Shown in pieces: positions 6,207 to 44,428 of a stretch of DNA of 44,428 nt. Both the position numbers and the translations under genes were made by a program. Below the pieces are notes generated by a model that ran no database searches, had not been told where the DNA came from, and saw nothing but the letters and a program-made list of their open reading frames with translations. The DNA comes from a virus. The stretch lies in IMG/VR virus record IMGVR_UViG_3300044993_000255, positions 1 through 44,428 of that record; one strand, given 5' to 3'. Every line of letters begins with the position of its first letter. Position 1 is the first letter of the stretch.

Positions 6207-6592
6207 GGCTTCACCCCTTTCCAGATGAAGGCGTTGAGGATTGAGGCCATCAGTGGCTCAACGTGGGCGTTTGGCTTCACCGCCTCATCCTCAAGATCTT
6301 CCAGATACGCCTGATGGCAGCCGGAGCAGACCAGGATCTCTTGGTTCTTGCTGTTGAATTTTACGCTGCACTGCAGGCAAACGCGATCGCCGCACTCCGA
6401 GCAGCGGTCGCAGAATTCACAGCACTTGGCTTCGCCGCAGGAGCATACGCTCGTCTCGAAGCCCTCTCCCGGGCCGTTGTAGTGCTCGGTCTCGCAGACC
6501 GGGCAAGTTCCGCTGTAGTCGTTGGGGTTGGGCTCCGGTGGGCCATTGAGCCATGGTGGCTCCAGATACTGCAGGTAGGACAACATAGACAT
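6203..6592 (-). CDS. Cysteine-rich zinc-ribbon protein
   Basis: 129 residues from the ATG at 6592 (MSMLSYLQYL), chosen for the GGGAAAGGGA site just upstream; the frame is open further up to 6757 but that part overlaps the structured leader. There are at least six Cys pairs: CPVC, CSC, CCEFCDRC with CGDRVCLQC, and CSGC. This suggests two or three zinc-binding ribbons or fingers. The C-terminal 40 residues are acidic. It heads the run of genes leading to the recombination cassette, which would suit a regulatory or nucleic-acid-binding role, but no specific family is recognised. The leader in front contains several hairpins. Confidence 0.7.
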   Translation of the reverse strand: MSMLSYLQYLEPPWLNGPPEPNPNDYSGTCPVCETEHYNGPGEGFETSVCSCGEAKCCEFCDRCSECGDRVCLQCSVKFNSKNQEILVCSGCHQAYLEDLEDEAVKPNAHVEPLMASILNAFIWKGVKP

Positions 6593-6851
6593 TCCCTTTC
6601 CCCCGTTGGTTGAGCAACGGGGTTCAGAACTTGCCGGACGGCTGGAGGCATCCACCATCCGGCAAGCTCCGGTTTCACCCTTGGAACCGGATAAAGCTGG
6701 AAACCACTGGTCTTCCAAGCTGCGGGTAGCAGGTTCCATTCCTGCAACTCCTGCCATTTTTCAGGTTCCAAGGGGCTGCCATTGACGCCCAGAGAGCTTA
6801 TGGCGCTAAACTCCTCCGGAGAACGAGGCTGCATTCTTGCCTCTGGTTGGA
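6593..6851 (-). promoter_or_regulatory. Structured leader upstream of the zinc-ribbon gene
   Basis: This 259-base gap is unusually rich in inverted repeats. CCCCGTTG and CAACGGGG flank a six-base loop at 6601-6622. A 12-bp stem with one mismatch (CTTGCCGGA...TCCGGCAAG) spans about 6630-6666. CCGGTT/AACCGG pair at 6669-6690. GGAA/TTCC with CCA/TGG pair at 6698-6715. GCAGG/CCTGC enclose TTCCATT at 6729-6745. Read in the minus direction, the first hairpin sits right before the ribosome site of the zinc-ribbon gene. The region could be a cis-acting leader, a small RNA or remains of one. A minus-strand frame of good composition (6834 down to 6361) also crosses it, so coding cannot be ruled out. 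Confidence 0.45.
6698..6755 (+). other. tRNA 3'-half-like sequence (tRNA relic or attachment-site candidate)
   Basis: On the plus strand the order matches the 3' half of a tRNA: a CTTCCAA anticodon-type loop (anticodon TCC, Gly), a five-base stem position, a five-base variable region (GGGTA), a perfect T-arm GCAGG-TTCCATT-CCTGC, seven bases, a discriminator G, CCA and then TTTTT. The anticodon stem pairs poorly and no matching 5' acceptor arm lies at the normal distance; a near-match (GGGGTT, 6619-6624) is 60 bases too far away. So it is not a working tRNA gene. It could be a degenerate tRNA or an attachment core copied from a host tRNA end, but no integrase was seen. Confidence 0.35.
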
Positions 6852-7034
6852 TTATGCCTTAAGGCTCTTGCCGGATGCAAGAGAATTTTCGGTTTTTTTC
6901 CTGCCCCATCGTGCTTGGGCAGCCTCCCTAGCCCTCTGCTTGCGTTCCGCGGGGCTGAGCATGGACACGCCCTTCGGCACCCTAGCCAGTCCGCCCCGCC
7001 GGCCACTTTCAACAAATACCTGCCGTTTTGCCAT
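6852..7034 (-). CDS. Small basic GGxAR...ARW protein, probable DNA-binding
   Basis: 60 residues from the ATG at 7034 (MAKRQVF). A GTG at 7088 overlapping the stop of the giant gene (GTGA) would add 18 residues and may be used instead, because no ribosome site precedes the ATG. The body ESGRRGGLARVPKG, LSPAERKQRARE and AAQARWGRKK matches a widespread type of short basic protein with GGxAR, SPEER and AARARW blocks. Its function is not established; the charge suggests nucleic-acid binding. From memory, such proteins are especially common in Acidobacteriota and similar soil bacteria, which is a weak host hint. Confidence 0.65.
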   Translation of the reverse strand: MAKRQVFVESGRRGGLARVPKGVSMLSPAERKQRAREAAQARWGRKKTENSLASGKSLKA

Positions 7035-7084
7035 ATAGCCAGTATGCTGCAAGGGTGTCGCTGCCTTCAAGCCGCAGTCTGGCC

Positions 7085-10000
7085 TCACCGGCTTTCCGTC
7101 CCCGTCAGGATTCTGGCCGCCTCCTCCGGGCTGTCAGCCCCTTCGATCGCTCGCTTGACGCGCACGGCCTGAGTGCCTCCGGGAGCCACGCCCCGAATGA
7201 TGCTCTCTATCCACTTGTCAAACCGGCTCGGGTCCTTGAGCGTTTTCACGGACTGATCCGCAACGTCAAAGGCCGTCCCGATGGTGGGCCCCATCAGCCA
7301 GCTCCCCATCCTGTCACGCAGTCTGCCGCTGCCAGCATCCTCCATCCCGGGGATGGTGAAGACGCCCATCTGGTACTGGAGCCTGCCCGCCTGCAACCAG
7401 GCCGCGATGTTCCATTTCTCCTGCCACTCCTCCATCCACCGCGTTACTTCCCAGTCCGGGAAGAAGGTCTGGAAGGCCTGCACCAACAGCAATGATGCCG
7501 GTCCGCCCAGCGCGACGGTCCACGCGGCAAACTGCGCTTGCTGCTTCCGGTCAAGCTGGCCAATGAACTCAAGCTGTTTGATTGTGAAGGTCTTGAACTG
7601 CATCAGGATCTTGCCGGCCGGCGTGCGCGCAAACAACGGCGCATCCAACCGGCCACTGTAGAACTGCGTCACGCGAACCACTTCGCGCGCCCGCCGCACT
7701 GCAGCCTCTCCGCTCAACCCTTCACTCTTGGCCATCTCCAGGCCGGCCAGGTAGGCAGTCGCCCGGTTCAGGGCCTCAGCCTTGTCAAAGAGGAAACTGG
7801 CCGCCTTCTGCACAGACTCAGCCACTCCATGAAGCGCAGGCCGGTCAAACTTCGATTGCCCAGGATCATCGCTGAAGATGCCTCCCCGGTGAAGCCTCGC
7901 AATGTCGCGCACAAAGGGATTCAGGCGGTTCGGCAAGGCTACGGCGGCCAGCGCCCGCGGCAAGACGGCCAGTGTCCGCCGTGTTCCGGCGTAGGGCATC
8001 GTGTTCAGCACGGTCTGCGTCAAATTGAGCATTGGCGTGAACAGGTTGAAGCCGATCTTGGCGTTGTACTGAATCGCCGTCGCCCATCCGGCCAGTTCTC
8101 CGGCGGAAGGCTGCCACCTGTTGAGAATGGGAATCTTGGACATGAGCGCACGCCAAGCCGCATCGGTCATCACCTGATTCGACTGGGGTCTGCCGGCGTA
8201 CTGCGCGATGTAGCGCCGCGCGTAGACTCGCAATGCCGGGTCCTCAATCTTCTTCGTCAGTGGATTGGCGGTTTTGAGAAAGCGCGTGATCGCCACCTTG
8301 CGGGCAAAGCCCTTCCGGTAGATCTCAGCGATCATGTCAGCGTCCCGCAGGCCGGGGATCGACCACTCCTGACGCGTGAAGTCGAAGCTGCCGAAGGTGA
8401 CCTTCTTCGGATTCGCCTTCTCGAGAATCTCTTCCGCGATGTGGATTGGCACGCCAATCTCCCGCGCTAGGTCTGCTGCAGCGTCCTTGATCTTGCTCCG
8501 GTTCAGCCTGAGCGTGGAGTCGTGATAGAAGCTCAGGTAATTGTCGAACCGCTGCTTGCCGTCGATGAGCCCCTCAGCGATGCCCATCTTGCGCGAGGGC
8601 TCGAAGAACAGCTTGGTCCATTTCTCGTTGGCTGCCTTCTCCTTGGGCGTCAGGAAGCCCTCAAGGTTATCCACGATGGCCGTGTCCTCTCCGATCGAGT
8701 CCAGCCATTCCCGCGCCTCTTCCTCGCCGCGCATCTGGATGATTTGTGACACAAACCGGTACAGCGCAATCCGGTTCTTCTCCGCCTTCGACAAGCCCTT
8801 GTTGGCCTTCTCCCAGTTCTTGGCCCAGCGCTCGTTCAGCCGCTCCTGCAGGAACCAGTTTTCCTCGGCCGCCGCATAGATCTTCTGGCCAGCCACGCTG
8901 CGGCCAAGAATCTGAGACGGGCTGCGGAGCATGGCCCCCACGGGCACAGTGGCCGTGTGCAAACGGTCAAGGATTTCCTGGGCCTGGGCCTTGGTAAGCC
9001 TCTTGGCGCCGGTCTGGCTGGAGACGGATTCGGCAATCCGGCGGTATTCAGAGTCAGGGGAGACAGTCTTCCGCTGCTTCTCGCCGGGGCGCCGGGTTGC
9101 ATCCGCATCAAGCGTTTCGCCGTTCGAGCCGAAGCGCTTTTCCCTCAACGCTTGCGTGTCAATGCTTTCACTATGGCGTCGATTTCCGCCTGGTCCGCTG
9201 ACGGCATCCCGTACTCCGGCTGTGGGTTGACCCACTCCTTGGTTTCTTGCTCCAGTTCCGCCAGTGGCCTTGCCTGGGTCCCCGGATACATTTGATCCAG
9301 CCAGTTCTGAAACGCCTGCTCGCCGCTGTCCAGGGCTTCCAGTCCTGTCAGCAGATTTTTGTCTGCGATTGCCCAATCCATTGGCCCGATCGGCTTTTCT
9401 GGCTGCCCTGATGATCTCAATGATTTCTTTCGGCTTGTGCCTGCCATGCGCTCTCCTCAACGCCAGAATATATTGCGCCGACAGGTCTCTGGCTTCCTGT
9501 GCGGTCAAATTGAGTTCAACATATCTTTTGCCGCGCATCAAACTGACGCCGATTTCACCAGCCAGAACGTCCGGCCGGTCTAGGGGTCCAATGTATCCCT
9601 TGGCCCTGAGGGCATCCGCTGCCTTTTTCGCCAAGTGGTGGGACATGAAACGGGCGGTTTGCGATGCATCGCCCAGGTGTCCCAACATGTTGCCGCCCCC
9701 CAGCGACATTTGCATCAGATGGTCCAGTTCTTCGCGGATGGCCATCTCAAATGCTGGCGGGCTGATCTCCCCGGTTTCCACGCCAACGGCAAAGCCTTGC
9801 TGTTGCGTGGTCTGAATCGCGGTCAGGATTTCGTCGAAGAACTCGTTTGCAATGCCAGTTGGTCTGAGTGTTGCCACGATTCTCGCCACGTGATCAACTT
9901 GCCCCTTTTGGAGAGCCATTCCATGCACTTTGCGGGCATTGAATGCAACCCGGCCCTGAGCGTCTGGCTTGGCGAAACCCATGAGCGCGATCAGGATGTG

Positions 10001-13000
10001 CATCCCCTGCAGGTTAGTGACCAGCAGCGGCTGTCCATCAAAGAGCACAAACCTGGCCTTCGCGTTCCGTAATAGCGTATCCACTGAGAGGTTCTGGTCA
10101 TAGAGATGGTCCACCCTCAGGCCCTGCAGGTATGGACCCTGGTAGCTGAATAACGCCCCTTGTTCCATGCCATCGGCAAGACTGAAGGCTCCTGGCAGGT
10201 CAGCCTTCGATGGCGACATCTCTACTCTTCCACTGGAGTCCGACACAACTGGAAATTCGCGCAACAGCGCTTGCAGGCCGTCCAGAGCCCGCTCATCGTT
10301 CGGGATGAAGTAACGGTACACGTACTGGATGTTTTCGCTGAAGCCGCCATGGGGCTTGATGATCTGCAAGACGCGCTGCACGTGCTGACCTGGAATCACC
10401 ACTTCGATCCGGTCCTGCCCGGCTCGAACCAGCTTCTTCAGCTTCAGTCCGCTGGTCAGCTCGTAGACTTCTCCCTCGCGCACCCCAGCAAGGACTTCCG
10501 CCGGCGTCACATTTACGCCATGCCCCAGCGCCCGCATAACTCTGTTGATGCGCGTGTGCGGAATGCGCACGCCAAGAATGCGCTGCCCGCCGGGAATCTG
10601 AGCAATCTCCACCTTTAGCGGCCTTTCGCCGTCCGACAACTTGTCATAAATCGGCAACACACTGCCGCCAATCAGGTGAACGTGCTCAGTCCGGAACTCA
10701 CCCGCGTCTTGGTACTGCTTGTCCCAGTCCTGCTGTGCTTCCCGGTTGGCTTCTGCTCTTTCATACTTATTGAGATCCGTCTCATCAATTAATCCAGCCC
10801 CGGCCGCAGAGAAGTAGCGGTACACGCCAACGATGGAGCCATCCAGGGCAGTTTTCGTGTAAAAATTCGCTCGGGTAACCGCAATCAGGCGCCCACTGTT
10901 CTTCTGCCGCAAGAGGCGGTGATCGTTGCGAACGGCTTCCTGGGCCTCTTCCCACGTCCTTCTGTCGCGCCGGTGATAGGCATGGATCTGGTAGTGTATC
11001 GTGCGGGCGCCTGTCTCTTTGTCAGTTCGGATGACCGTTGGCTCGCCCACCAGTTCCAGCCTGTCAGCCTGGATCTTCTCTGTTCCGGCGTCAAACATCC
11101 CGATCCGCTTGGCGTTCTCAATGGCCGCCTGGAACTCCTGCATGAAGCGGTCGAAGGTTCTGTTCTGGATTTCCAGAGGCAACGACATCAGCCGGTTGAG
11201 GAACTGCGTAACCGGTATGTTTTCCGTCTTCAGCTCCTTGCCCTCTTCCTTCAGCCCCATCATTTCGAGAATTTCCGCGTTATCGCGGTTCATCTTGTCC
11301 ACTAACGACCTGACTGCGGAATGGCCATAAATCGTCTCAAAGTTATATTTGGCTAACTCTCCCACCCCGGCGCCCGAACGGTCCCCCCGGCTCAATGCGC
11401 CTAGTTGCTCCAACCTGCGGGCGATTGAGGAACTGAAGCGCTTGTCCGCTCCTATATTGATGCTCAGTAACTTGTAGATTGGCTGACTGGTTTCATTTGA
11501 GCGATGGACCCGCCCCATGTCCTGAATCTGCTCATCGGCGGACCATTTCAGCTCCAGGCTGATGTGGACGCGCTGCTGCTGGTTTTTGGCGCGGCGGTCT
11601 GCGTGCAACGAGATTCCGGTCGAAGCCGAGTTAGAAAGAATCGCGATGCGCTTCTTGCCCTCCTGGAACAGGCGAGCCTCTTCGATATTGACGGATTCTG
11701 CGCTTTGGCCCTTGCGCTTTTCGAGGATCTTCTTGCCGTCCTTGTCCTCAACGATGCGCTGCTTACGCCCGGTCAACTCCGCCACATTCTCGGCGCCATA
11801 GCGGTTGATGATCTGGTCGATCGCCGACTCAGGCATCCTCAAGGATTCCAAATCCTTGAGCAGGTCCTCCTTCATCTTTTGCGCTTCTTTGTTGATCACT
11901 GGATTCCCGTTGGAATCCAGCACTAACCTTTTGATTTTTTTGCCATCTTCGTCCACCACTTCTTCGTACTGATAGATGGGAAATGCTTTTTCGACTAAGT
12001 TGCGCAAGATTTCAGCCGGACTCATGTCCAGATCGTCCAGGCTGTCCTCTTGGCCATCTGTCAATCGGCCAGCCAAGGCACGGTCCATAGCAGCCTCTCC
12101 GGTGCCAAGGACGGAAATGACGACGCTTTTGTCGTTCGCTAGGGCTTCATCAACCTCCTTGAAAAGCGTTGGCACTTTCATCGCCGTAAACAGCGTGCGG
12201 TAGAAACGCTGATTTTGGGACCAGAAAAGGCTGCGGGCCTTTGATCTGGCTAACTTGGAACGGTTTCCTGTTATGCCCATGGCCCTGTCGATGTTCTGAA
12301 ATACCTTGCGCCATGCGCGGCCAGCCGCTTCGAGAATCTGGGCTTGCTCCTCGGTTACCTTGTGCACGACTTCGGAAAATTCAACGCCTGCATAGGACAG
12401 GAAACGGCTAACGTACTTGCCCTGAGACTTCATGTCTCTCGCCACCATCTCCATCGCTCCAACTCCGCCCCTAGTGATGGCGTAATCAAAGCTGGTAAAC
12501 GTGGGAAACGCGGTTCCCTGGCCCCATAACCCCAGCCGTTTGGCGTACCCGATGTTAATTGGATCGGTGAAGCCAGTGGCTGAAGCGTAAAGCACCCGCG
12601 CTTTTTTCAGTTGGTCTTGAATCAACAAAACAGCCGTGCCGGAATGAGAAGCGCTTGCCTTGAAAATCTGGCCGGCAGTGTCCACCACTGCATTCTTGGC
12701 TTTGTGCGCTTCGTCAAACACAATCAGCGAGTCTTCGCCGGCCCACTCAGCAATCTGTTGAACCCGGTAAAAATGCGCCGCTTTCATTTTCTCCAGGTCT
12801 TTTCCGGCAACGTCCCCCTCAACCCGGTATGAGTTCTGCGCCAAGGTCGAGTAGGGGATAAATACAATGCCTTCCTTGAATTTCTGCTCAATGGCCTGTC
12901 CCTTTTTGAACTTCTTGATGCTGATGATGGGTATGTCTGCGTTGAGGTCTTTGAGATCGCGCTTGGCGTCCTCGATCAAGTCATCCTTGAAACTCAGCCA

Positions 13001-16000
13001 CACCATGCGCTTCACTCCGGAACGCCAGTGATGCAAAATCGTGCCGGCGATCTCGCGGCCTTTGCCGACGCCAGTGCCGTCGCCAATGAAGAATCCCTGC
13101 CTGCTGCCGTCGGCCAGGAAGCGCTCGTGGCTCTGCGCCGCCAGTGCGATCGCCGTCAGCTGCACATCAGTAAGAGCCCCGCTGGTGATGAGTTCATCCG
13201 GTAAATTGGGCTTCATCACAATGTCGGCGTCTTCGGTCGCGGCCATTGCCGGGGTCTCTACGATGAGGCCGGGGTGGCTCTTGGCCCCCCACTGCTTGGG
13301 CAGCTTCGATGAGACGTAGATCACATTTCCGGCGCCGTCATCTTCTCGCTCACCGGTATTGTTTTGGGTTTGTCGTTTTGGCGAGTCCTCACCTTTCGCC
13401 TTGGCGCCGCCGGAAAGAATTTTCAGGGCCTTTTCCCGCAGCTCGTCATATACTTCTTCAGCCTTGTCCCGGATAGTCTGCAGATGCTCCCGCACCCACT
13501 CCCCAATCTCCTGAACAAAAGGCTCGGACCACTTCTTGAAGGCGATGCCGTACTGCCTCATCTTCTCCGCGGCGATCGTCGCCAAGTCGAGTAGGTCTTG
13601 AGGGTCCAGCCCGCTGTTAAGCCGGGAGCCTTGCATCTTTCTGCGTAGACGCTCTCGCGCCGCCGCCGCCGCTTCAGCCAGTAGCTCGCCGTGTTTGGCG
13701 TCGATCTCGGCTTCCGTTGGCGCCGCCTTGGGCTCCGGCTTCGTTTCGGCCTTGGGCTCCGGCTGGGCTTCTGGTTTGTCAGGTGGCCGAAGATCCGGTT
13801 TTTCGTCTGTTACAGGTCGTATATCTCGTACAGCATCATCAGAAGGGGCGAGTAATTCTCCTCCGGGCTTTTGTCCCACAGGTAGTTCAGGTCGAACTCC
13901 GGCTGGCTTTTCTTGAGAGCCTTTATCGCCAACCTTGGCGGAATTTGCATCACTGCGGACAGCCACCCCTCCGGGGCGTCCCCGGCTATCCTTTCCAGGT
14001 CGGTTTTGGCCAGCCCCGGATACTCCTCCAGCATTTGAATCAGGTTGTCCAGAATCTGGTCGTAGGCCTCCTGCGCCCTCACTGGACGCCCCTTCCGGTA
14101 AAGCACGATTGGGTTGGGGTCTTTCTGCGGCGATTTGGCTGACGGCATCCCAGGCTTCCTCAATGCTTTTGAAGTCTCCCTTGGCGATTTGGGCGCGTTG
14201 CTTGAGCCAGTTGTCTCCTGGAGTTGGGCCCGTCTTGTCAATGACGATAATCCGGTTCCCGAAGGTCGTTCCATATTTCGCGTATTCCTTTCCATCCAAT
14301 CCAATGTTCGCCCGGATATTGCCCTTGCTGGCCATCTTCTTCCAGAACAGCTGCGCCGTTGCAGCGTCGAGCGCCGCGCCCTCGCCCAGGATTGCCACCA
14401 GGCGCCCGCCAGGTTCCAGGCGCTCAAACGCCTGTTCCACATGCTGATAGCCAACGCTGTTGCTGTTTGCGGTCCCCCGCGTACCCGCTGCGGAAAAAGG
14501 CGGATTCATCAGCACGACCGTGGGCTTCACGCTGTCGGGCAGGATGTTGTGAATCTGTTCAGCGTTCTCTTGGGTGACCTCGTACCCTTGCCGGCGCAAC
14601 AGGTCTGCCCGCTTCGGGTCGATCTCGTTTGTGAAAACCTTCGCTCCCGCCGCTTTCGCCCAGCTCGCCAAGCCGCCAGTGCCGGCCGAGGGCTCAAGTA
14701 CCGTATCGCTCGCTGTCATTGCAGCCAGCCGCGACGCAAAGTAGGCCAGTGTCGGCGGGGTGGAGAACTGCTGAAACCTGATCTGCGTTTCGCTGCGGCT
14801 GGTCTGCGTCGGAAGCAAAGCCATCATGCCGCGCAATCCAGACAATGCTTTCCGGAACGAAAAGCCGGGCTGAATGGCGTCCTTGCCTTGCTCCGCGACG
14901 ATCTCGTTTACCGCGCTTTCGAGGATGTCGTAGGCTTCCTTGGGTTGGATCTCTCCTCGGGCCGCGGACAGGCCGGATTCCCGCTCCACCCGCTGCATGA
15001 ACTTGGTGATGTCGCCGAGGGACTCGTTCTTGGCAATGGAGGCCTTGAACGACTGCATGAGGGCCTGTGTCTTGTCGGAGCTGGCCGGCGCAACTTCGTC
15101 GGTCTCGCGGTCGCTCACTTCAATCCCCGCGCGCGTCGGCGTCAGCTTTTTGACGTTCCACTTCACCTTCGTCCCATCGGGGAGGGTGTCGGAGTCCTCA
15201 GCCGATTGCGGCCTGGTGCTGATTGCGACAAACTGCCTGCCCTTGGGTGAAGTCTCATAGGGGGTTGGATCGTACACCAGGTCGGCCACATCCTCGGGCT
15301 GCATCAGGTGCGCCCGGTCGGTTTCGTGAAGGAACACTTGACCCGAGGTGCTGAGTTCGTTTACCGCCGCGTCGAACTCCTCTTTGCTCAGTTCAGGGAA
15401 CTGCTTCCGCAACTGCTTGAGGCTTTCGTGCGAGCCTTCGCCATACATGGTTTCGCGGAGCTTGGCGAGAATGCGTTCGCCTGGCGTAGCATCGAGGGAT
15501 GGATCACGTTCTGGACGAACTGTTTCAGCCGGAGAGACCGCTGCCGTTCTGTCTTCCACTGCTTCTTGCGGAATTCCGAGAGCGGGTGATGCGTCCACCG
15601 GCAACGCTGATTCCGATTCATAGGTCAGCTCTTGCGGCTGCCCCTGATAGACAATTGTGCGAAGTGGATCCAGTTCCTCGGACTCTTGTGCTGTCGCAGT
15701 ACTGGGTTGGGTTTCGCCTTGCAGCTCAGCCTGGGACTGTTCAGCCTGAGCCTCCGGACGTTTGACGATACGCCAGAACTTTTTGCCCTTGGGGCCCATC
15801 CGCTTCAACCAACCCTCGTCTTGCATCTGCTTCAAGATTTCAAGGGTCGTTTTGTAGTCGATCCCCAACTCCCTACGGATCTCATTGGGGCTGGCTGCCT
15901 TCTCCCGCCTCATCGTTATTTCGAGGGCCTTGGCGTACTGCTCGGGAGTGTATGACTTTTCTTTGAGCGCGTCCGGTTGTCCGACAGATGGATCGCTGGC

Positions 16001-17128
16001 GTCCTTTTTCGGCGCCGAAACTGGCGCAGCTTCGGCAGCCTGCTGCGTGTCTGGTGCGCCGACATCCGGTCCGCTTCTGCCGGATTTGCCGGACCGCCCC
16101 ATGACGGCTTCGCCGAATGCGCCGCCTGCCGCTCCCACTAGGAACTCAAAGGGGACGGGTCCGTAGATGTCCTGATCGCTCTGGGGCTTCACCAGTCCGA
16201 GGGCTTGACGCTGCGCAATCCCTTGCGATGCTTCCTGCAGGCCTTCGGACAACGTGGACAGGGCAAACTTCTTCGGCCCGCCCTTCATCATGTCGTTGAA
16301 GATGCCGAAGGCATTGAAGGCCAGAGTCGGAGGCAGTTCGCGCTTGAAGGTCTCCGCCACCACGGCCCGCGCGGTTTCCTCGCTCGCCCCCATGTCGAGC
16401 GATTCCTGGTAGCTGTTGCCCGCGTCAAACATGGTCTCGACCATGCTGGCGGCGCCGACGCCCATCGCCGTGCGCACCAGAGGCAGATACTGCTGCTTGA
16501 TCTTCAGCGCCTGCATGGCCTTGTCGGCTTGCCCGAGTACGCCTGCCGTTGGCGCCATCATGGACAGCATTGATCCACTGATCTGCCCGGCCAGGTCGAT
16601 CCAGTACTCGGGATTCTTCGCCACCTCCGGCTTCTCGAGGAAGTTCTCCCCTGCAATGCCCCGCAGGTCGGCGCGGATATCGCTGCCCCGGCCAATACCC
16701 TCGCCAAAGCCACGGATCTCCTTGCCGATCTCCTTTATCGGACCGCCAACGATCCCTGGCTTGCCATGTTTGATGGCATCCTCTTTTACGTATCCGCCTA
16801 GCGCTTCAATCGCGCCGCCCACGCCTTGAATGCTTTGGCTCATGGCGCGGCTGCCGCTGCGCAAGAACGTATCCACGGGCTTCAGCACACCATCGGTCAA
16901 CACAACGCCAGCGCGGTCCATGACTCCGGACTCTTTCATCTGCGCTTCTGGACGCGGGATGCTAGGCAGGCCGGTTTTCTCCGCCCCCGGCGGCAAGGGG
17001 TCAGTGAAGTCCTTGTAGGCTTCAAACTTGGCGCGGATCTTCGCCCCTAGGGCCTCATCGCTCAATGCATCATAAAAGCCGGGGTATTTCTCCTTCACCC
17101 GGCGACCGAGTTCAATAATGTCTGGCAT
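7085..17128 (-). CDS. Giant polyvalent phage protein: winged helix, N6-methylase, Strawberry-notch helicase
   Basis: 3347 residues, about 23% of the genome. The N-terminus (IIELGRRVKEKYPGFYDALS) is of a type common in large virion-associated proteins. A winged-helix segment like FtsK gamma lies near 392-458. An N6-adenine methylase domain has EPSAGTGG at about 812-819 and the catalytic NPPF at 875-878. After a Pro/Glu/Lys linker (about 1030-1240) comes a superfamily 2 helicase of the Strawberry-notch type with GDGTGVGKGR near 1349, DEAH at 1472 and a C-terminal GRVHR near 1872. A region with REELDHL (about 2463) resembles a degenerate metallopeptidase. The final 600 residues are helical with hydrophobic stretches near 3200. 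This layout matches 'polyvalent proteins' such as P1 DarB, thought to be injected with the DNA to block restriction. Packaging in the virion is inferred from position beside internal-protein genes. Confidence 0.9.
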   Translation of the reverse strand: MPDIIELGRRVKEKYPGFYDALSDEALGAKIRAKFEAYKDFTDPLPPGAEKTGLPSIPRPEAQMKESGVMDRAGVVLTDGVLKPVDTFLRSGSRAMSQSIQGVGGAIEALGGYVKEDAIKHGKPGIVGGPIKEIGKEIRGFGEGIGRGSDIRADLRGIAGENFLEKPEVAKNPEYWIDLAGQISGSMLSMMAPTAGVLGQADKAMQALKIKQQYLPLVRTAMGVGAASMVETMFDAGNSYQESLDMGASEETARAVVAETFKRELPPTLAFNAFGIFNDMMKGGPKKFALSTLSEGLQEASQGIAQRQALGLVKPQSDQDIYGPVPFEFLVGAAGGAFGEAVMGRSGKSGRSGPDVGAPDTQQAAEAAPVSAPKKDASDPSVGQPDALKEKSYTPEQYAKALEITMRREKAASPNEIRRELGIDYKTTLEILKQMQDEGWLKRMGPKGKKFWRIVKRPEAQAEQSQAELQGETQPSTATAQESEELDPLRTIVYQGQPQELTYESESALPVDASPALGIPQEAVEDRTAAVSPAETVRPERDPSLDATPGERILAKLRETMYGEGSHESLKQLRKQFPELSKEEFDAAVNELSTSGQVFLHETDRAHLMQPEDVADLVYDPTPYETSPKGRQFVAISTRPQSAEDSDTLPDGTKVKWNVKKLTPTRAGIEVSDRETDEVAPASSDKTQALMQSFKASIAKNESLGDITKFMQRVERESGLSAARGEIQPKEAYDILESAVNEIVAEQGKDAIQPGFSFRKALSGLRGMMALLPTQTSRSETQIRFQQFSTPPTLAYFASRLAAMTASDTVLEPSAGTGGLASWAKAAGAKVFTNEIDPKRADLLRRQGYEVTQENAEQIHNILPDSVKPTVVLMNPPFSAAGTRGTANSNSVGYQHVEQAFERLEPGGRLVAILGEGAALDAATAQLFWKKMASKGNIRANIGLDGKEYAKYGTTFGNRIIVIDKTGPTPGDNWLKQRAQIAKGDFKSIEEAWDAVSQIAAERPQPNRALPEGASSEGAGGLRPDSGQPDSNAGGVSGAGQNRPGKDSRGRPGGVAVRSDANSAKVGDKGSQEKPAGVRPELPVGQKPGGELLAPSDDAVRDIRPVTDEKPDLRPPDKPEAQPEPKAETKPEPKAAPTEAEIDAKHGELLAEAAAAARERLRRKMQGSRLNSGLDPQDLLDLATIAAEKMRQYGIAFKKWSEPFVQEIGEWVREHLQTIRDKAEEVYDELREKALKILSGGAKAKGEDSPKRQTQNNTGEREDDGAGNVIYVSSKLPKQWGAKSHPGLIVETPAMAATEDADIVMKPNLPDELITSGALTDVQLTAIALAAQSHERFLADGSRQGFFIGDGTGVGKGREIAGTILHHWRSGVKRMVWLSFKDDLIEDAKRDLKDLNADIPIISIKKFKKGQAIEQKFKEGIVFIPYSTLAQNSYRVEGDVAGKDLEKMKAAHFYRVQQIAEWAGEDSLIVFDEAHKAKNAVVDTAGQIFKASASHSGTAVLLIQDQLKKARVLYASATGFTDPINIGYAKRLGLWGQGTAFPTFTSFDYAITRGGVGAMEMVARDMKSQGKYVSRFLSYAGVEFSEVVHKVTEEQAQILEAAGRAWRKVFQNIDRAMGITGNRSKLARSKARSLFWSQNQRFYRTLFTAMKVPTLFKEVDEALANDKSVVISVLGTGEAAMDRALAGRLTDGQEDSLDDLDMSPAEILRNLVEKAFPIYQYEEVVDEDGKKIKRLVLDSNGNPVINKEAQKMKEDLLKDLESLRMPESAIDQIINRYGAENVAELTGRKQRIVEDKDGKKILEKRKGQSAESVNIEEARLFQEGKKRIAILSNSASTGISLHADRRAKNQQQRVHISLELKWSADEQIQDMGRVHRSNETSQPIYKLLSINIGADKRFSSSIARRLEQLGALSRGDRSGAGVGELAKYNFETIYGHSAVRSLVDKMNRDNAEILEMMGLKEEGKELKTENIPVTQFLNRLMSLPLEIQNRTFDRFMQEFQAAIENAKRIGMFDAGTEKIQADRLELVGEPTVIRTDKETGARTIHYQIHAYHRRDRRTWEEAQEAVRNDHRLLRQKNSGRLIAVTRANFYTKTALDGSIVGVYRYFSAAGAGLIDETDLNKYERAEANREAQQDWDKQYQDAGEFRTEHVHLIGGSVLPIYDKLSDGERPLKVEIAQIPGGQRILGVRIPHTRINRVMRALGHGVNVTPAEVLAGVREGEVYELTSGLKLKKLVRAGQDRIEVVIPGQHVQRVLQIIKPHGGFSENIQYVYRYFIPNDERALDGLQALLREFPVVSDSSGRVEMSPSKADLPGAFSLADGMEQGALFSYQGPYLQGLRVDHLYDQNLSVDTLLRNAKARFVLFDGQPLLVTNLQGMHILIALMGFAKPDAQGRVAFNARKVHGMALQKGQVDHVARIVATLRPTGIANEFFDEILTAIQTTQQQGFAVGVETGEISPPAFEMAIREELDHLMQMSLGGGNMLGHLGDASQTARFMSHHLAKKAADALRAKGYIGPLDRPDVLAGEIGVSLMRGKRYVELNLTAQEARDLSAQYILALRRAHGRHKPKEIIEIIRAARKADRANGLGNRRQKSADRTGSPGQRRAGVSELAGSNVSGDPGKATGGTGARNQGVGQPTAGVRDAVSGPGGNRRHSESIDTQALREKRFGSNGETLDADATRRPGEKQRKTVSPDSEYRRIAESVSSQTGAKRLTKAQAQEILDRLHTATVPVGAMLRSPSQILGRSVAGQKIYAAAEENWFLQERLNERWAKNWEKANKGLSKAEKNRIALYRFVSQIIQMRGEEEAREWLDSIGEDTAIVDNLEGFLTPKEKAANEKWTKLFFEPSRKMGIAEGLIDGKQRFDNYLSFYHDSTLRLNRSKIKDAAADLAREIGVPIHIAEEILEKANPKKVTFGSFDFTRQEWSIPGLRDADMIAEIYRKGFARKVAITRFLKTANPLTKKIEDPALRVYARRYIAQYAGRPQSNQVMTDAAWRALMSKIPILNRWQPSAGELAGWATAIQYNAKIGFNLFTPMLNLTQTVLNTMPYAGTRRTLAVLPRALAAVALPNRLNPFVRDIARLHRGGIFSDDPGQSKFDRPALHGVAESVQKAASFLFDKAEALNRATAYLAGLEMAKSEGLSGEAAVRRAREVVRVTQFYSGRLDAPLFARTPAGKILMQFKTFTIKQLEFIGQLDRKQQAQFAAWTVALGGPASLLLVQAFQTFFPDWEVTRWMEEWQEKWNIAAWLQAGRLQYQMGVFTIPGMEDAGSGRLRDRMGSWLMGPTIGTAFDVADQSVKTLKDPSRFDKWIESIIRGVAPGGTQAVRVKRAIEGADSPEEAARILTGTESR

Positions 17129-37614: not shown

Positions 37615-38175
37615 TTATTGCCAGCTCCCGTTTGCCACGGAAATGCCACGCATGGCGAGCCGCCGCCGCATGGACTCATACGCCTGCTGGCGAATCATGC
37701 GCACCAGTGACGCCGACACTCCCATGTGTGCGGCTATGGCCTGCACGTCCATATGCCGCCAGTGGTGCATGTACAGCACCTCGCGCTCGCGCTCGTCCTC
37801 CAGCTCGTGCATGATGGAGCCCAGCAGCTTGCGCATTTGGCGCTGCTGCATGCGCTGCTCCGTCCGATCATGACTGGCAGGCTGCGTCTGAGCATCGAGC
37901 GGCAGCGCCGTCGCGTCACGGTAGTGCCGACGCCGGGCCGCCATCAGGCAGGCGCCCCGCACAGCCCGATAGGCGTAGGTCGTCATCGACACACCCAGAC
38001 TGGGGTCATAGGACTGCAGGCGCCGCCAGGTCTCGATCCGCGCGATCTGGCGGAGGTCGTCTAGATCGTATGAAGGGGGCAGTCTGCGGGCGACCTGGGA
38101 CGCCATCGCATCAGCCCACCGTAGCAGGTCATCGGTCAGGGGTACCGGCGCGTCATCTTTGCATCGCCGCGACAT
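37615..38175 (-). CDS. Sigma-70-like factor encoded between the two terminase genes
   Basis: 186 residues. Residues about 36-80 (DLDDLRQIARIETWRRLQSY, SMTTYAYRAVRGACLMAARR) match sigma region 2, which binds core polymerase and the -10 element. Residues about 124-172 (REREVLYMHHWRHMDVQAIA, HMGVSASLVRMIRQQAYESM) match region 4 with a helix-turn-helix for the -35 element. There is no region 1 or 3. A phage factor of this type would direct the host RNA polymerase to late promoters. The gene overlaps the small terminase by 23 bases and ends five bases before the GTG of the large one. Confidence 0.85.
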   Translation of the reverse strand: MSRRCKDDAPVPLTDDLLRWADAMASQVARRLPPSYDLDDLRQIARIETWRRLQSYDPSLGVSMTTYAYRAVRGACLMAARRRHYRDATALPLDAQTQPASHDRTEQRMQQRQMRKLLGSIMHELEDEREREVLYMHHWRHMDVQAIAAHMGVSASLVRMIRQQAYESMRRRLAMRGISVANGSWQ

Positions 38176-38587
38176 AGCGCTCTAGGCTGATGGTCAACTC
38201 AGCTAGTGTGTAGCTGCCGCCCTGCGCTACTCCTTGCTCGTGTGGCTTGGCTGGGGCGATGGCCCGATCGGTGGCGCCAAGCAAATGGATCAGCCTGTCC
38301 ACCGCCTCCAGCGCCAGGCGAGCGTCATCGCCCTGCATGATCTCGGTCATCCGTTCGACCGCAGTGCGGTAGCTGCGGTCAATCAGCGCGTCGTGACGCT
38401 CCGCGTAGCGCCGCATGAGGGCGCGCACCTCAGGGTCAGCCACGTACTTTTCCACGGTCTTCTTGGAGAGCCCGACCTGTTTTCCGATCTCAGATAGCGT
38501 GGCGCCCTGCACCCGCGCCAGGGCGATCTCCTTCTTCTTGGCTGAGGTGGTGTTAGGTCGATCCTTGCGCTGACTGGTCTTGCCCAT
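38153..38587 (-). CDS. terS: Probable terminase small subunit
   Basis: 144 residues. The N-terminus is a basic helix-turn-helix (KKKEIALARVQGATLSEIGK followed by QVGLSKKTVEKYV), as in DNA-recognising small terminases, and the middle and C-terminus are helical (RMTEIMQGDDARLALEAVDR) and could form the oligomer ring. It is the first gene of the packaging operon, immediately before the sigma-like gene and the large terminase. A general regulator is the main alternative. Confidence 0.7.
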   Translation of the reverse strand: MGKTSQRKDRPNTTSAKKKEIALARVQGATLSEIGKQVGLSKKTVEKYVADPEVRALMRRYAERHDALIDRSYRTAVERMTEIMQGDDARLALEAVDRLIHLLGATDRAIAPAKPHEQGVAQGGSYTLAELTISLERYVAAMQR

Positions 38588-38995: not shown

Positions 38996-39015
38996 TCCCC
39001 GCAACGAAAAAAAAT

Positions 39016-39055
39016 TTGTACAGCCTCTTGACTTACGTACAAATATATGTACACT
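39016..39055 (+). promoter_or_regulatory. Promoter with overlapping palindromic operator, drives the plus-strand operon
   Basis: A -35 box TTGACT at 39028-39033 and a -10 box TACACT at 39050-39055 are 16 bases apart. The palindrome GTACA-N6-TGTAC (39037-39052) fills the spacer. The hexamer TGTACA occurs at 39017-39022 and again at 39048-39053, exactly 31 bases or three helical turns apart. This spacing suggests a dimeric or cooperatively bound repressor. The first gene starts 42 bases after the -10 box behind AGGGAG. The binding protein is not identifiable here. Confidence 0.6.
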
Positions 39056-39096: not shown

Positions 39097-39687
39097 ATGA
39101 ACGCTATAGAAACAGTCCTCGCAGGCAAAGCCTGCGGACCGCATATGAATGGGGCCGACTTGCGCGGCCTCGGCAAGGAATACGCTGCCCTCGACGGCGC
39201 CGATCTTCACGGCGCCTATCTCACTGGCGCTGACCTGTCAGGCGCCACCTTCACCGGCGCCGACCTGGCCGGCGCAAACCTGTCCGGCTGTGACCTGTCC
39301 GGGGCCGACCTCACCGGCGCCGACCTCACCGGCGCCAAACTGGCCGGAGCCAATCTGGTCGGCGCGGACCTCACCGGCGCCAACCTGAGCCGGGCCGACC
39401 TGACCGATGCCGACCTCACCCGGGCCGACCTGACCGGAGCCGATATGTCAGGCGCCGACCTGACCGGCGCACTGCTCGACCATGCGATCCTGAGGGAGAT
39501 CGCGGCAGACCAGGCCCAGTGCGTCGCTACAAATATCTGGTTTTGCGACCTCCGCGGAGCCAGTTTCACCGGCGCCGACTTCACGCGCGCTCAAATCACC
39601 GGTTGCGAGTTGGACCAGGCCAGCTTCTCTGGCGCCGTCTGGGACGAGCCAGCCCAGGACTTCTTGTCCACGGGGGGTGCAGAATGA
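39097..39687 (+). CDS. Pentapeptide-repeat protein
   Basis: 196 residues, with AAGGGAG before the ATG. From residue about 15 to 130 the chain is built of five-residue units A(D/N)LxG (ADLTGADLTGAKLAGANLVG and so on), about 20 in a row; then comes a short break (REIAADQAQCVATNIWFC) and four to five more units (DLRGASFTGADFTRAQITGC). Such repeats fold into a right-handed four-sided beta-helix. Members such as MfpA and Qnr mimic DNA and bind gyrase, while others have no known partner. This one lacks an enzymatic domain. It is the first gene of the plus-strand operon and overlaps the next gene by four bases. Confidence 0.9.
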   Translation: MNAIETVLAGKACGPHMNGADLRGLGKEYAALDGADLHGAYLTGADLSGATFTGADLAGANLSGCDLSGADLTGADLTGAKLAGANLVGADLTGANLSRADLTDADLTRADLTGADMSGADLTGALLDHAILREIAADQAQCVATNIWFCDLRGASFTGADFTRAQITGCELDQASFSGAVWDEPAQDFLSTGGAE

Positions 39688-39947
39688 GCGCCCCTCGTAA
39701 CTCTTACCCGTGGGCGGTGATCACCCGCCCAGGGTATACCTTGGGCGACAACCAGCTCGCCTTCATCAGCCGCCATCGCACCCTCGTCGCCGCCCGCCGC
39801 AAGGCGGCCACGTGGGCCGGCTACATGGTAGTCCCGGCATGGATGGGTGAGGAACCCATCTGGGAGGACTTCATCGTCTCCCAGCTCAGCGCCATCCATG
39901 CGGCCATCGAGCGGGAAGAAAAGCTCGCCAAAGGGGGTGCGCAATGA
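39684..39947 (+). CDS. Small hypothetical protein between the two repeat proteins
   Basis: 87 residues from the ATG at 39684 that overlaps the stop of the pentapeptide gene (ATGA), with a run of G as ribosome site. It starts MSAPRNSYPWAVITRPGYTL and has a helical end (QLSAIHAAIEREEKLAKGG). The initiation region (GGGGGTGC, two bases, AATGAGCGCCCC) is almost the same as that of the next gene, as if copied. No family is recognised; its constant position between two solenoid proteins suggests a shared task. Confidence 0.7.
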   Translation: MSAPRNSYPWAVITRPGYTLGDNQLAFISRHRTLVAARRKAATWAGYMVVPAWMGEEPIWEDFIVSQLSAIHAAIEREEKLAKGGAQ

Positions 39948-41197
39948 GCGCCCCCACAATCATCGACCTGGCCCGCTACACCCACAACGGGAGGGTGTAT
40001 CTGCTCAAGGCCGTCAAGGCCAACGGCGCCTCCCGTGGCGGTTTCGTTTGGCCATTGTCCACGGGTGAGCGCGTGGTGGCGCCCGACTGGGACCCTGAGC
40101 CCGTATGCAAGGGTGGACTGTTCGGGTGGGTCGCCGGAATCGGTGTGGGCCTGGGCAAAGACCCCGACTGGGGCGGTAAGTGGATCGTGTTTTCCGCCGG
40201 GCCCAAAGACGTAGTCATGGTAGGGGACAAAGCCAAGGCCCGCGAAGCCTGCATCGAGTATGTGGGCGACTATGCCGGGGCCCAGGCCTACCTGCAACGC
40301 ATCAGGCTGGAGGCGGCTAGGGGGAGTGGACCCAGGGCGGCCGCCGACGGGGCCCACGCATATGCCAGCACGCAACGTGGCGTAGGCAGCGCGAAAGGAA
40401 AACTCGCGGTCGCTGCGGCCAAAGGCAGGTACTCCGTCGCTGCGGCGACGGGCAGGCACGGTCAAGCTGAGGCGCTCGAAAAGTGGAGCGTCGCGGCCAA
40501 CACGGGCGACTACGGCACCGCCACCTCGCAGCACATAGGCTCCGTCTCCGCAGCTACCGGCGATCATAGCGCGGCTATCGCGCATCATGACTGGGCCGTT
40601 GCCGCGGCGACGGGACAGAAGTGCCTCTCCACTAGCAGGGGACGATTCTCGGTGGCCGCTGCCTGCGAGCACAAATCTCGTGTGTCTGCAGCCGGGGTGC
40701 GCTCGATCGCCGCATCGGCCGGCGGTCATAGCATCGTCCACGCAGGAGAACAGGGGGTAGCCGCCGTGACCAGCGAATACTCCCAAGCCTCAGTGGGGCA
40801 AGCCGGCATTGCGGCCGCAACCGGCAAAGATAGCGCAACTTCCGCGTCCGACTCCGGCATCGCGGCCGCGATCGGTGACCGTAGCACGTCTTCCGCGGCT
40901 AAATCTGGCATCGCCGCTGTAAACGGTGACCATAGCAAGGCTTCCGCAAAAAACTCCGGCATCGCTGCCGCGAAGGGATGGGAAGCCAGCGCTGAGGCAG
41001 GCGACCACGGCGTCGCCGTCGCCGTCGGACCCTTAGCTCGAGCCCGAGCCGGCAAATACGGCGTCATCGTCCTCGGGACGCGCCCACTCTATCACGAATA
41101 TGTGGTGGGCCAGGTCGGATGCGGCGATGGGTCAGACGGCAAACTCAAGGCCGATACCTGGTATCGGCTCCAGGGCTGGGAGATTGTACTCGCCTGA
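39944..41197 (+). CDS. Solenoid-type protein with 17-residue tandem repeats
   Basis: 417 residues; its ATG overlaps the preceding stop (ATGA). The first 125 residues form a globular domain with GGFVWPLSTGERVVAPDWDP, CKGGLFGWVAGIGVG and a WIVFSAGPKDVVMVGDKAKA block, which recalls N-terminal domains of phage proteins followed by A/G/S-rich repeats. Residues about 135-385 consist of repeats, most clearly 17 residues long in the last eight units: [S/A]GIAAAxGxxSxxSAxx (for example SGIAAAIGDRSTSSAAK and SGIAAVNGDHSKASAKN). A short C-terminal cap follows (TWYRLQGWEIVLA). The spacing fits one turn of a beta-solenoid per repeat. The function is unknown. Confidence 0.75.
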   Translation: MSAPTIIDLARYTHNGRVYLLKAVKANGASRGGFVWPLSTGERVVAPDWDPEPVCKGGLFGWVAGIGVGLGKDPDWGGKWIVFSAGPKDVVMVGDKAKAREACIEYVGDYAGAQAYLQRIRLEAARGSGPRAAADGAHAYASTQRGVGSAKGKLAVAAAKGRYSVAAATGRHGQAEALEKWSVAANTGDYGTATSQHIGSVSAATGDHSAAIAHHDWAVAAATGQKCLSTSRGRFSVAAACEHKSRVSAAGVRSIAASAGGHSIVHAGEQGVAAVTSEYSQASVGQAGIAAATGKDSATSASDSGIAAAIGDRSTSSAAKSGIAAVNGDHSKASAKNSGIAAAKGWEASAEAGDHGVAVAVGPLARARAGKYGVIVLGTRPLYHEYVVGQVGCGDGSDGKLKADTWYRLQGWEIVLA

Positions 41198-41208
41198 CAG
41201 CACTGCAC

Positions 41209-41242
41209 GCGGCGCACCTGCTCATCGGGTGCGCCGCATTTT
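41209..41242 (+). terminator. Intrinsic terminator/attenuator after the second solenoid gene
   Basis: GCGGCGCACC and GGTGCGCCGC form a perfect ten-pair stem with a nine-base loop, followed by ATTTT. The T-run is short, so partial read-through is likely. The next gene begins 12 bases downstream, which would make this an attenuator that sets a ratio between the repeat proteins and the last three products. Confidence 0.75.
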
Positions 41243-41254
41243 CGGACTATCACC

Positions 41255-41683
41255 ATGCGCCGCATACCCCCCTCCTCAATCTGCCCTCCCGGCCTGCGGG
41301 ATGCCGATGTCTGGCCGTGGGACTCCCCGCAGTGGCGCCGAGTCCTGCGCTACGCGTGGCTGGCAGATCCAGAGGCATATCACCACGAGGTCTGGATCGC
41401 CCTCCATTTGGCAGGTCCGCACGCCCGCATGCCCGTTGCGTGGAGCGCCGTCTACTGGCGCGTCCGCACTATGTTCGACCAGGTCTTCCGGCGCACGCCG
41501 ACGCGACCAGTAAAGAAGCCGGCCGCTCTGCGGCCGTCGAAGCAACAGTACCGCACTGGCTATCGCACAGACAGCCAGCGCAAGACAAAGGCACGCATGA
41601 CGATGCCGCGCAAGCGGCGACAGGAGATAGCTAGATATGGGAATCAGAGCAGACATGAGCGCCGAAGAGAGGCGCATGCATAA
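41255..41683 (+). CDS. Hypothetical basic protein
   Basis: 142 residues. The first 75 are rich in Trp and aromatics (DADVWPWDSPQWRRVLRYAW, VAWSAVYWRVRTMFDQVF), and the last 60 are very basic (KKPAALRPSKQQYRTGYRTD, KRRQEIARYG). No ribosome site is visible before the ATG, which lies 12 bases after the terminator stem; expression may depend on read-through. It overlaps the next gene by 47 bases. No family is recognised; nucleic-acid binding is a possibility from charge only. Confidence 0.55.
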   Translation: MRRIPPSSICPPGLRDADVWPWDSPQWRRVLRYAWLADPEAYHHEVWIALHLAGPHARMPVAWSAVYWRVRTMFDQVFRRTPTRPVKKPAALRPSKQQYRTGYRTDSQRKTKARMTMPRKRRQEIARYGNQSRHERRREAHA

Positions 41684-42149
41684 CCGGGAGAACCGGCAAC
41701 GTAAGAAGATCCTGCGCAACCTGCGCCACGCGGGCAATGTCGTAGTGCGGCGCGGCTACATCGACGTCGCGTCGGTGATGGCAACTGCACAGGACTGGCA
41801 GCAGCTACGGTCGCGGCACCGCAAGGATATCCTTGCCGCGACGATCGATGCGCGTGTGCATATCGCGGAATACACCACGCCCACATCGCCCCTGCGCGTC
41901 CTGGTGGACGCTCGCGTACCCATGGATGGCGTAGCGGGATACGAGATCGTGCTGACCGCAGAGGGTATGCCACGCCTGCACGTGTACCCTCGGCCATGGG
42001 ACGGATCGCCCGGTCATCGGCTGACCGTGCTGGCCGCTGCCCATGCAGGCGCCGTGCTGACGCCGCCGGACGCCGGGCCAGTGCTGCCGCCGCTAGATGT
42101 GCTGCTTACGACGATCGACCTGATCATGCCGATCCAGGATAGCGAATGA
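41637..42149 (+). CDS. Hypothetical protein
   Basis: 170 residues with AGGAGAT upstream of the ATG. The first 50 residues are basic and helical (NRENRQRKKILRNLRHAGNV), the rest strand-rich with several Asp (VHIAEYTTPTSPLRVLVDAR), ending in a helical acidic tail (DVLLTTIDLIMPIQDSE). Its stop overlaps the start of the zinc-finger gene (ATGA). No family is recognised. Confidence 0.6.
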   Translation: MGIRADMSAEERRMHNRENRQRKKILRNLRHAGNVVVRRGYIDVASVMATAQDWQQLRSRHRKDILAATIDARVHIAEYTTPTSPLRVLVDARVPMDGVAGYEIVLTAEGMPRLHVYPRPWDGSPGHRLTVLAAAHAGAVLTPPDAGPVLPPLDVLLTTIDLIMPIQDSE

Positions 42150-42373
42150 ACCTGTCCAGGCTCCCCATCAATGACCAGGTCGCCGTCATCCTGACGGCAA
42201 GCCGTGAGGCGATCAAACAGGCCTACGTGTCGGTCGCTCGAGTAGGCCGGCCGCGGAAGATCACGCCCTGCCCCAAGTGCGGAGTGCTCATGACCGCGCG
42301 GGAACTCCATCGGCATAGCGCCGCACAGTGCGAGGAGTACCGGCGCAACAACCGCGCAAAGCGATCCGGCTGA
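42146..42373 (+). CDS. Small C2HC-type zinc-finger protein
   Basis: 75 residues. A helical N-terminal half (DQVAVILTASREAIKQAYVS) is followed by a basic linker and CPKCGVLMTARELHRHSAAQ with a last Cys. The pattern CxxC-N11-H-N5-C is a classical small zinc finger that could bind DNA or a protein. The end is basic (RRNNRAKRSG). It is the last gene of the plus-strand operon, facing the minus-strand replication genes. Confidence 0.7.
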   Translation: MNLSRLPINDQVAVILTASREAIKQAYVSVARVGRPRKITPCPKCGVLMTARELHRHSAAQCEEYRRNNRAKRSG

Positions 42374-42444: not shown

Positions 42445-43332
42445 TCACCCAGCCCGCGCTTCGCCCTTCGCCCGCTCGCGAATGCGCCTAGGCATCACCA
42501 CGCGGAACCATCCCCAGCTGTCAGGACGCCATCGGGAATTGCTTTTGCGCTGCCGGCGCACGCACGCCACCACCAGCGCGGGTAAATCCTTGGCGGGCAT
42601 GCCTGAGGCCTGCGCTTCGGCCAGCAGGAAGCGCACCAGCTCAGCGTCCGGCAATTCCGGGTCCATGCGCCCGTCCGTGGCGTCCCTCATCGCCTTCGCA
42701 AGCTCGATGTGCTCGGGCGGTAACGCCGGCGGGATCTCTATCCGGGAAGCGCGGCACAAGCCGTTGGGCGGCCTAGCCAGCCTCAAGCCCGACAAACCAT
42801 TATTAGGTTTTTTTAACGCCGCCGGTTTTTCCACAGGATTTGCAACCACGCTGTGGGGGGTAGGGGGGTGTTGAACATCCGATAACGTCGCTGGCGACTC
42901 CGTCTCCGTCTCCGACTCCGTCTCCGACTCCGTCTCCGAGCGCACATGCCCGGCGCCTGCATGGCAAATGTCAGGCACTTGCCGGGCATTTTCTTTGTAA
43001 GTTGTTGATTCTTCTGGACCGGGGAACTTGGAGCGCTGCGAGCGCAAGCGCTGGTTGAATTTTCTGAATTCGAGGTACTTTTTCCCTTCGACTTCGTAAA
43101 TCGTTATTAATTCTTTTTCACACTCGCCCATCCACTCCCTGATGCGCTGCTCGGTCGCCCACTCATACCTGTACCCGAACGCCCGCAACCTGATCTTCTT
43201 CGGGTCCCATTCGAATCGCCCGTAGTCGTCCACGATGCTCATGAGCCGCCGATAGAATAGCTCTGCTTCCGGACTCAGGCGGTTCACCGCCTCTGACTCC
43301 AGAATTCCCTCGCGGATAATTCGCTCTGGCAT
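42445..43332 (-). CDS. Phage replication-initiator-like protein
   Basis: 295 residues. It begins MPERIIREGILESEAVNRLS followed by PEAELFYRRLMSIVDDYGRF, the winged-helix start shared by many phage replisome organisers (lambda O/DnaD-type). A spacer follows with a repeated Ser-Glu-Thr-Glu run (about residues 130-145), a Pro-rich stretch, and a helical C-terminal domain (ELPDAELVRFLLAEAQASGM) with a Trp/Arg-rich end. Such proteins bind an origin, often inside their own gene, and recruit the host helicase. The C-terminal part may be the helicase-binding domain. The gene follows the RusA-like gene with a four-base gap. Confidence 0.75.
   Translation of the reverse strand: MPERIIREGILESEAVNRLSPEAELFYRRLMSIVDDYGRFEWDPKKIRLRAFGYRYEWATEQRIREWMGECEKELITIYEVEGKKYLEFRKFNQRLRSQRSKFPGPEESTTYKENARQVPDICHAGAGHVRSETESETESETETESPATLSDVQHPPTPHSVVANPVEKPAALKKPNNGLSGLRLARPPNGLCRASRIEIPPALPPEHIELAKAMRDATDGRMDPELPDAELVRFLLAEAQASGMPAKDLPALVVACVRRQRKSNSRWRPDSWGWFRVVMPRRIRERAKGEARAG
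42896..42940 (-). repeat. Trinucleotide-like repeat coding (Ser-Glu-Thr-Glu)n linker
   Basis: About 45 bases of tandem GACTCC/GTCTCC units (plus strand), encoding SETESETESETETES in the replication-initiator-like protein. It separates the DNA-binding and C-terminal domains. Units of this kind change copy number easily, so linker length may vary among strains. Confidence 0.8.
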
Positions 43333-44133: not shown

Positions 44134-44428
44134 AGCGAACCGGATCGATCAAGCCGAAAAGATTGCCTTGCACTGCGGATGGCTTCCGCTCGGAAGGCTG
44201 ATCCTTGACAGCTTCAGCCGACCGCGCAACGGCGGCGCCCTTGGGCTCTTTTAAGGTCCTGCGGAATCGCTTACGCCTTGGGCAAGTGACGTGATGAAGC
44301 TGGCCGTCCGACTCGTTGTACGGCGCCCAGCGGTCGCGCTGTTGCTCAGCATCGTAGAAAACCACCCAGCCGAAGCGAGCCCCGCACTCGCAGGTCTTGA
44401 CGCTGCGGAACTGCCGCCGCCAATCAGG
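44120..44428 (-). CDS. CxC-motif protein with LFG tail, diverged copy, 5' end cut by the window edge
   Basis: About 102 codons visible, from PDWRRQFRSVKTCECG at the window end to the stop at 44120. Its first 42 visible residues are the same as those of the protein at 169-492, and most of the next 40 are similar, but the last 30 are different except for QGNLFG. The identical part lies in the 127-base repeat. The change of identity at 44301/44302 marks where two alleles meet or where the assembly forks. Confidence 0.75.
   Translation of the reverse strand, partial: PDWRRQFRSVKTCECGARFGWVVFYDAEQQRDRWAPYNESDGQLHHVTCPRRKRFRRTLKEPKGAAVARSAEAVKDQPSERKPSAVQGNLFGLIDPVRYGVD
44302..44428. repeat. 127-bp exact repeat shared with 327-453 (right copy, window end)
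   Basis: Identical to 327-453 over its full length and flush with the window end. It supports joining 44428 to 454, which gives a circle of about 43,975 bp. Upstream of the match the two loci are clearly homologous but diverged. Confidence 0.9.

Follow-up and report, generated by a model that had tools for sequence, protein, structure and literature searches.

What does a phage gain from encoding two different repeat proteins side by side? This question is raised by a locus in the IMG/VR virus record IMGVR_UViG_3300044993_000255, which was analyzed over its whole length (44,428 bases; hereafter, the window). A preliminary description of this DNA had noted a pentapeptide-repeat protein and a 17-residue-repeat protein coupled through a small protein, and had proposed a unit for host takeover or anti-defence, possibly acting on gyrase by DNA mimicry.

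Genomic Setting and Architecture of the Three-Gene Unit

The minus strand of the window carries structural genes (head, portal, terminase, and tail-like) as well as replication and recombination genes, while a plus-strand cluster sits between a terminase small-subunit-like gene (38153–38587) and a replication-initiation-like gene (42445–43332). The three genes of interest are in this cluster, adjoining the terminase genes between the early and late phage modules, and are accompanied by putative control signals:

39014–39021 and 39037–39044: arms (exact, 8 bp) of an operator-like inverted repeat, ATTTGTAC ... GTACAAAT, spanning the −35 box
39028–39055, plus strand: predicted sigma-70-like promoter, TTGACT-16-TACACT (consensus scan, 9/12 matches)
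39097–39687, plus strand: pentapeptide-repeat gene (196 aa)
39684–39947, plus strand: small gene (87 aa)
39944–41197, plus strand: solenoid gene (417 aa, 17-residue repeat)
41209–41242, plus strand: terminator-like hairpin (12 bp; folding energy −26.6 kcal/mol, z = −2.45) with ATTTT after it

The small gene and the solenoid gene each start within the stop codon of the preceding gene (an ATGA overlap in both cases); together with the pentapeptide family match and the 17-residue period detailed below, these overlaps bear out the described coupling of the two repeat proteins through the small protein. A promoter of their own, also part of that description, is likewise predicted: the scan gave one match on the plus strand, and two matches over both strands together vs. 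0.5 expected in shuffles. The only exact matches to ATTTGTAC in the window are the two arms of the inverted repeat. At the other end, the hairpin separates the trio from three further plus-strand ORFs (41255–42373) that had no clear family matches, the last of them with a weak zinc-ribbon score; the earlier statement that the trio is on the strand opposite to nearly all other genes thus holds against the minus-strand structural and replication genes but overlooks these ORFs. A PADLOC search with six plus-strand proteins yielded no match.

The three genes have a GC content of 0.648–0.667 vs. 0.599 for the whole record, and the cluster is absent from the retrieved terminase-side flanks of phages related by their terminase (38–52% identity). 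Because of the hairpin, the higher GC content, and this absence near the terminase of related phages, the trio looks like a moron-like, self-contained accessory unit; the features by which morons are recognized (own promoter and terminator, absence from close relatives, and differing base composition) were all found here, the two signals as predictions.

Several other features of the window were recorded. A 209-nt direct repeat is present near the record ends (245–453 and 44220–44428; 200/209 identical, 96%), with its mismatches clustered at 282–326. A sigma-70-like protein with regions 2 and 4 (37615–38175, minus strand; Sigma70_r2, 3.7e-11) is encoded between the terminase subunit genes, and several related contigs encode similar proteins near their terminase. 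One ORF of 3347 aa occupies 7085–17128 (minus strand). In a stretch of about 1.1 kb (2443–3573), the longest ORFs kept are on the plus strand; one of these was scanned and had no family match, and the stretch is possibly non-coding.

The Pentapeptide-Repeat Protein and the Gyrase Question

The 196-aa protein matched PF00805 with 161.7 bits (2.3e-48; cut-off 20.2) and showed an autocorrelation z of 13.4 at period 5. Its AlphaFold2 model is a quadrilateral β-helix (pLDDT 84.7), and Foldseek matched this model to solved pentapeptide proteins with values down to 2.3e-14; family match, model, and solved-structure matches place the protein in the pentapeptide-repeat class (eight or more pentapeptides in tandem, folded into a quadrilateral β-helix).

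With Qnr and MfpA proteins, the 196-aa protein shares the right-handed quadrilateral β-helix and an acidic character (net charge −19); QnrB1, MfpA, AlbG, and EfsQnr are among its fold matches, and small gyrase inhibitors are known among phage-encoded proteins (PMC10886550). However, its scores are far below the curated Qnr and MfpA family cut-offs (52.8 vs. 240 and 63.8 vs. 360 bits, respectively), and its best solved fold matches are synthetic β1, HetL, and NP275-NP276, with QnrB1 and MfpA coming after these. The model also lacks a C-terminal helix (residues 190–196 are of low confidence), whereas pentapeptide proteins of the Qnr/MfpA kind typically dimerize via C-terminal helices (PMC10886550). 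A negative surface had been proposed as a sign of mimicry, but acidic surfaces are common, a general trait of phage pentapeptide proteins: in a set of 71 others, 15% match or exceed the negative charge of its core (−9.2 charges per 100 residues). The 417-aa protein, by contrast, is basic (net charge +9). Gyrase mimicry is thus possible, but not specifically supported.

The 417-aa Protein and the Bbp36/DUF7666 Family

Repeat autocorrelation of the 417-aa protein was high at 17 (z = 7.4) and 34 residues (z = 7.3), as compared to shuffles. Its AlphaFold2 model (pLDDT 85.1, pTM 0.64) predicts an N-domain and a solenoid with two strands per 17 residues; an alignment adds a C-terminal cap:

39977–40324, plus strand: N-terminal alpha/beta domain, RIIB-C-like (about residues 12–127; AlphaFold model, hhalign)
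40355–41077, plus strand: predicted β-solenoid of ~17-residue coils (residues 138–378; model and autocorrelation)
41078–41194, plus strand: C-terminal cap (KADTWYRL...) common to the family (alignment)

In a tblastn search, the protein matched Bbp36-like proteins (9e-12 to 1e-8); members of this family include Bbp36 ("VR2") of Bordetella phage BPP-1, gp052 of Burkholderia phage Mica, and a protein of Pseudomonas phage D14O. Viral contigs provided 149 candidate stretches encoding relatives, and a class-wide genome search found the domain in 4 of 298 genomes. Bbp36 itself scored 41.7 bits against DUF7666 (PF24703), over the cut-off, while the 417-aa protein had no match to this profile and is tied to it only through its relatives and its fold; the best Foldseek matches of its model among viral models are DUF7666 proteins (1.7e-11), and a comparison with the PDB gave no match at E ≤ 0.001.

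We place the 417-aa protein in the Bbp36/DUF7666 family as a distant member; it has a homologous N-terminal domain, a β-repeat middle, and the C-terminal cap. It differs in its repeats: those of relatives are near-perfect units of 8 or 9 residues whose copy number differs at the DNA level, whereas the 417-aa protein has degenerate 17-residue coils, and its gene has almost no DNA-level repeat (~70% identity across three 51-nt units). Among relatives with an identical 40-residue core, the number of octads ranges from 2 to 19 or more, some of these records being cut at contig ends. One contig (L011) encodes two Bbp36-like paralogues (1017–2321 and 5965–7038) with near-identical N-domains and different repeats. 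PMC2884959, with reference to Liu et al. 2004, describes bbp36 as non-essential and the number of its VR2 repeats as variable, apparently without reflecting tropism.

Apparent Relation of the N-Terminal Domain to RIIB and DUF5758

In the search against viral models, the matches ranking after the DUF7666 proteins (E of 5e-3 and weaker) include many from RIIB, as well as repeat proteins of giant viruses. The RIIB matches had a probability of 1.00 and, for most of them, an rmsd of ~3.2–4.3 Å over ~100–125 columns; the region aligned is taken to be the N-domain because RIIB has no solenoid, as the output does not include the aligned query residues. At the sequence level, the single T4 RIIB sequence was not significant against the Bbp36 profile and did not rise above shuffles; a profile–profile test was therefore run with a profile of 11 RIIB C-terminal domains (RIIB-C; T4 and ten other phages). 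This profile matched the Bbp36 N-domain profile with 81.3% (1.2e-5, 53 columns), as compared to at most 1.8% in 60 column-shuffled controls, and hhalign of the N-domain of the 417-aa protein's own clade against RIIB-C gave 77.9% (1.9e-5, 77 columns). With profile probabilities of about 80% and borderline fold E-values, the N-domain appears to be related to the C-terminal domain of RIIB from T4 and other phages, by profile and apparently by fold. RIIB differs from the 417-aa protein in having an N-terminal helix-turn-helix and a RIIA partner, and in having no solenoid. No Pfam match to a RIIB-type helix-turn-helix was found in the 417-aa protein (that of T4 RIIB was detected at sub-threshold scores), and T4 RIIA had no significant tblastn match within the window.

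A third domain, DUF5758 (PF19062), matched RIIB-C with 93.9%; several pentapeptide proteins of phages end in this domain (4.6e-23 in L151). Its match to the Bbp36 N-domain covers a short motif, VG-V-W-C-GIH (77.2%, 26 columns; 37.9% in the reverse run). Like the trio, these DUF5758 proteins pair a pentapeptide rod with a VG-V-W-C-GIH domain that matches RIIB-C; in the window, however, rod and domain are on separate proteins. We consider this moderate evidence, not proof, that RIIB-C, DUF7666, and DUF5758 belong to one superfamily. It would be a rather doubtful further step to regard them as a counter-exclusion or host-modulation superfamily with interchangeable β-solenoids (pentapeptide or octad), fused or adjacent, of which the unit in the window would be a split form with its rods side by side.

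Putative Linkage of the Two Solenoids, and the 87-aa Protein

Recurrence of the three-gene order, which the preliminary description had made a test of its proposal, was not observed in other records, although a pair of pentapeptide and Bbp36-like genes was found in two of them. These two are the only ones with pentapeptide matches among 48 other records with a Bbp36-like gene, a small number; in both, the pentapeptide gene is upstream, on the same strand, and within ~0.8 kb of the Bbp36-like gene, with unrelated small ORFs in between. In one contig (L132), a Bbp36-type N-domain is fused to pentapeptides (family HMM 20.9 bits vs. 10.5 for the best of 1000 shuffles; hhalign 89.7%). Two further candidate fusions were rejected: L166, as a pentapeptide–DUF7666 fusion, scored 20.4 bits vs. 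a threshold of 27 and found no support from the Bbp36 profile, and L236 yielded no supporting protein. With adjacency in two other records and one fusion, a link between the two solenoid proteins is plausible; a tendency of accessory genes to cluster in the early region could account for part of the adjacency. At 36 non-redundant family loci, the neighbours of known family are mainly repressors, ssDNA-annealing proteins, helicases, and integrases, and the top 25 neighbour families include no structural ones.

The 87-aa protein, described earlier as a conserved partner, is instead an orphan, with no credible homologue in the phages, plasmids, and viral contigs searched. A weak match (E = 0.03) in a Phycisphaerae MAG, just 5′ of a Bbp36-like gene, was attributed to chance, as it falls inside an apparently RusA-like protein. 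The 87-aa gene is flanked by two copies of a junction repeat:

39673–39694, plus strand: 22-nt gene-junction repeat, copy 1, at the stop–start overlap (20/22 identical to copy 2)
39933–39954, plus strand: 22-nt gene-junction repeat, copy 2 (20/22 identical to copy 1)

This repeat has no further match in the window (0 expected), but 26 nt that include the second copy's sequence are matched (96%) at a gene boundary in an unrelated viral contig (L257). The gene between the two copies may represent a cassette open to exchange.

Possible Functions of the Unit

The reading that we favour, with somewhat less than even confidence, is that of an intracellular, conditionally useful unit for host modulation or counter-exclusion. 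It draws on the analogy with RIIB, since rIIA and rIIB of diverse phages counter λ RexAB and are dispensable in its absence (PMC11879866; also PMC9391042), and on the repressor- and recombination-type neighbours of the relatives. An accessory unit presumably expressed from its own promoter and ended by its own terminator would encode two intracellular β-solenoid proteins, one a bare acidic pentapeptide rod and the other a rod with a DUF7666/RIIB-C-type domain. The solenoids may be exchangeable scaffolds that present or multimerize the RIIB-like domain, and the unit may modulate the host or counter exclusion encoded by a prophage or by the host, by analogy with RIIB and the dispensable Bbp36. 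Counting against counter-exclusion are the missing RIIA, the missing RIIB-type helix-turn-helix, and the linkage in only 2 of 48 records. The host-takeover or anti-defence proposal thus gains an accessory unit, a plausible linkage of its rods, and a domain resembling that of an anti-RexAB protein, but loses the recurrent trio and the conserved partner.

Among the alternatives, we consider it unlikely that a prophage would express the trio for lysogenic conversion or superinfection exclusion, shielding the host from other phages: the trio's moron-like architecture, its operator-like repeat, and the many relatives adjoining repressors and integrases would fit such a unit, but neither an integrase nor a repressor was recognized in the subset of window proteins scanned, and the relation to RIIB points to countering rather than imposing exclusion. 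Still less probable is DNA mimicry by the pentapeptide protein, with gyrase or some other DNA enzyme being inhibited or protected and the other protein assisting; the right fold, the acidity, and the Qnr-type proteins among the fold matches speak for it, against which stand the missed cut-offs, the different top fold matches, the missing helix, and the generality of the acidic charge.

β-Solenoids are frequent in tail fibres, and the trio adjoins terminase genes, as might be expected of a virion component (e.g., a decoration, ejected, or tail-associated protein). This role seems quite improbable given the separate predicted transcription unit, the relatives placed among repressor and recombination genes rather than structural ones, the lack of a PDB match for the 417-aa model at the threshold used, and the dispensability of bbp36 with variable repeats that, according to PMC2884959, apparently do not follow tropism. 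We give equally little credence to largely neutral passenger repeats that drift by expansion and contraction. The spread in octad number among near-identical relatives would be expected of such repeats, but in the 417-aa protein the 17-residue period and a confidently modelled fold are kept while the DNA repeat is nearly absent, suggesting selection on the protein.

If the counter-exclusion reading is correct, RIIB, which has lacked a clear mechanism ever since the work of Benzer, would be joined to large uncharacterized families of phage solenoid proteins, among them VR2, the still unexplained protein of Bordetella phages, and a single test would apply to RIIB and these families alike, namely a comparison of plating between hosts that have exclusion systems and hosts that lack them.
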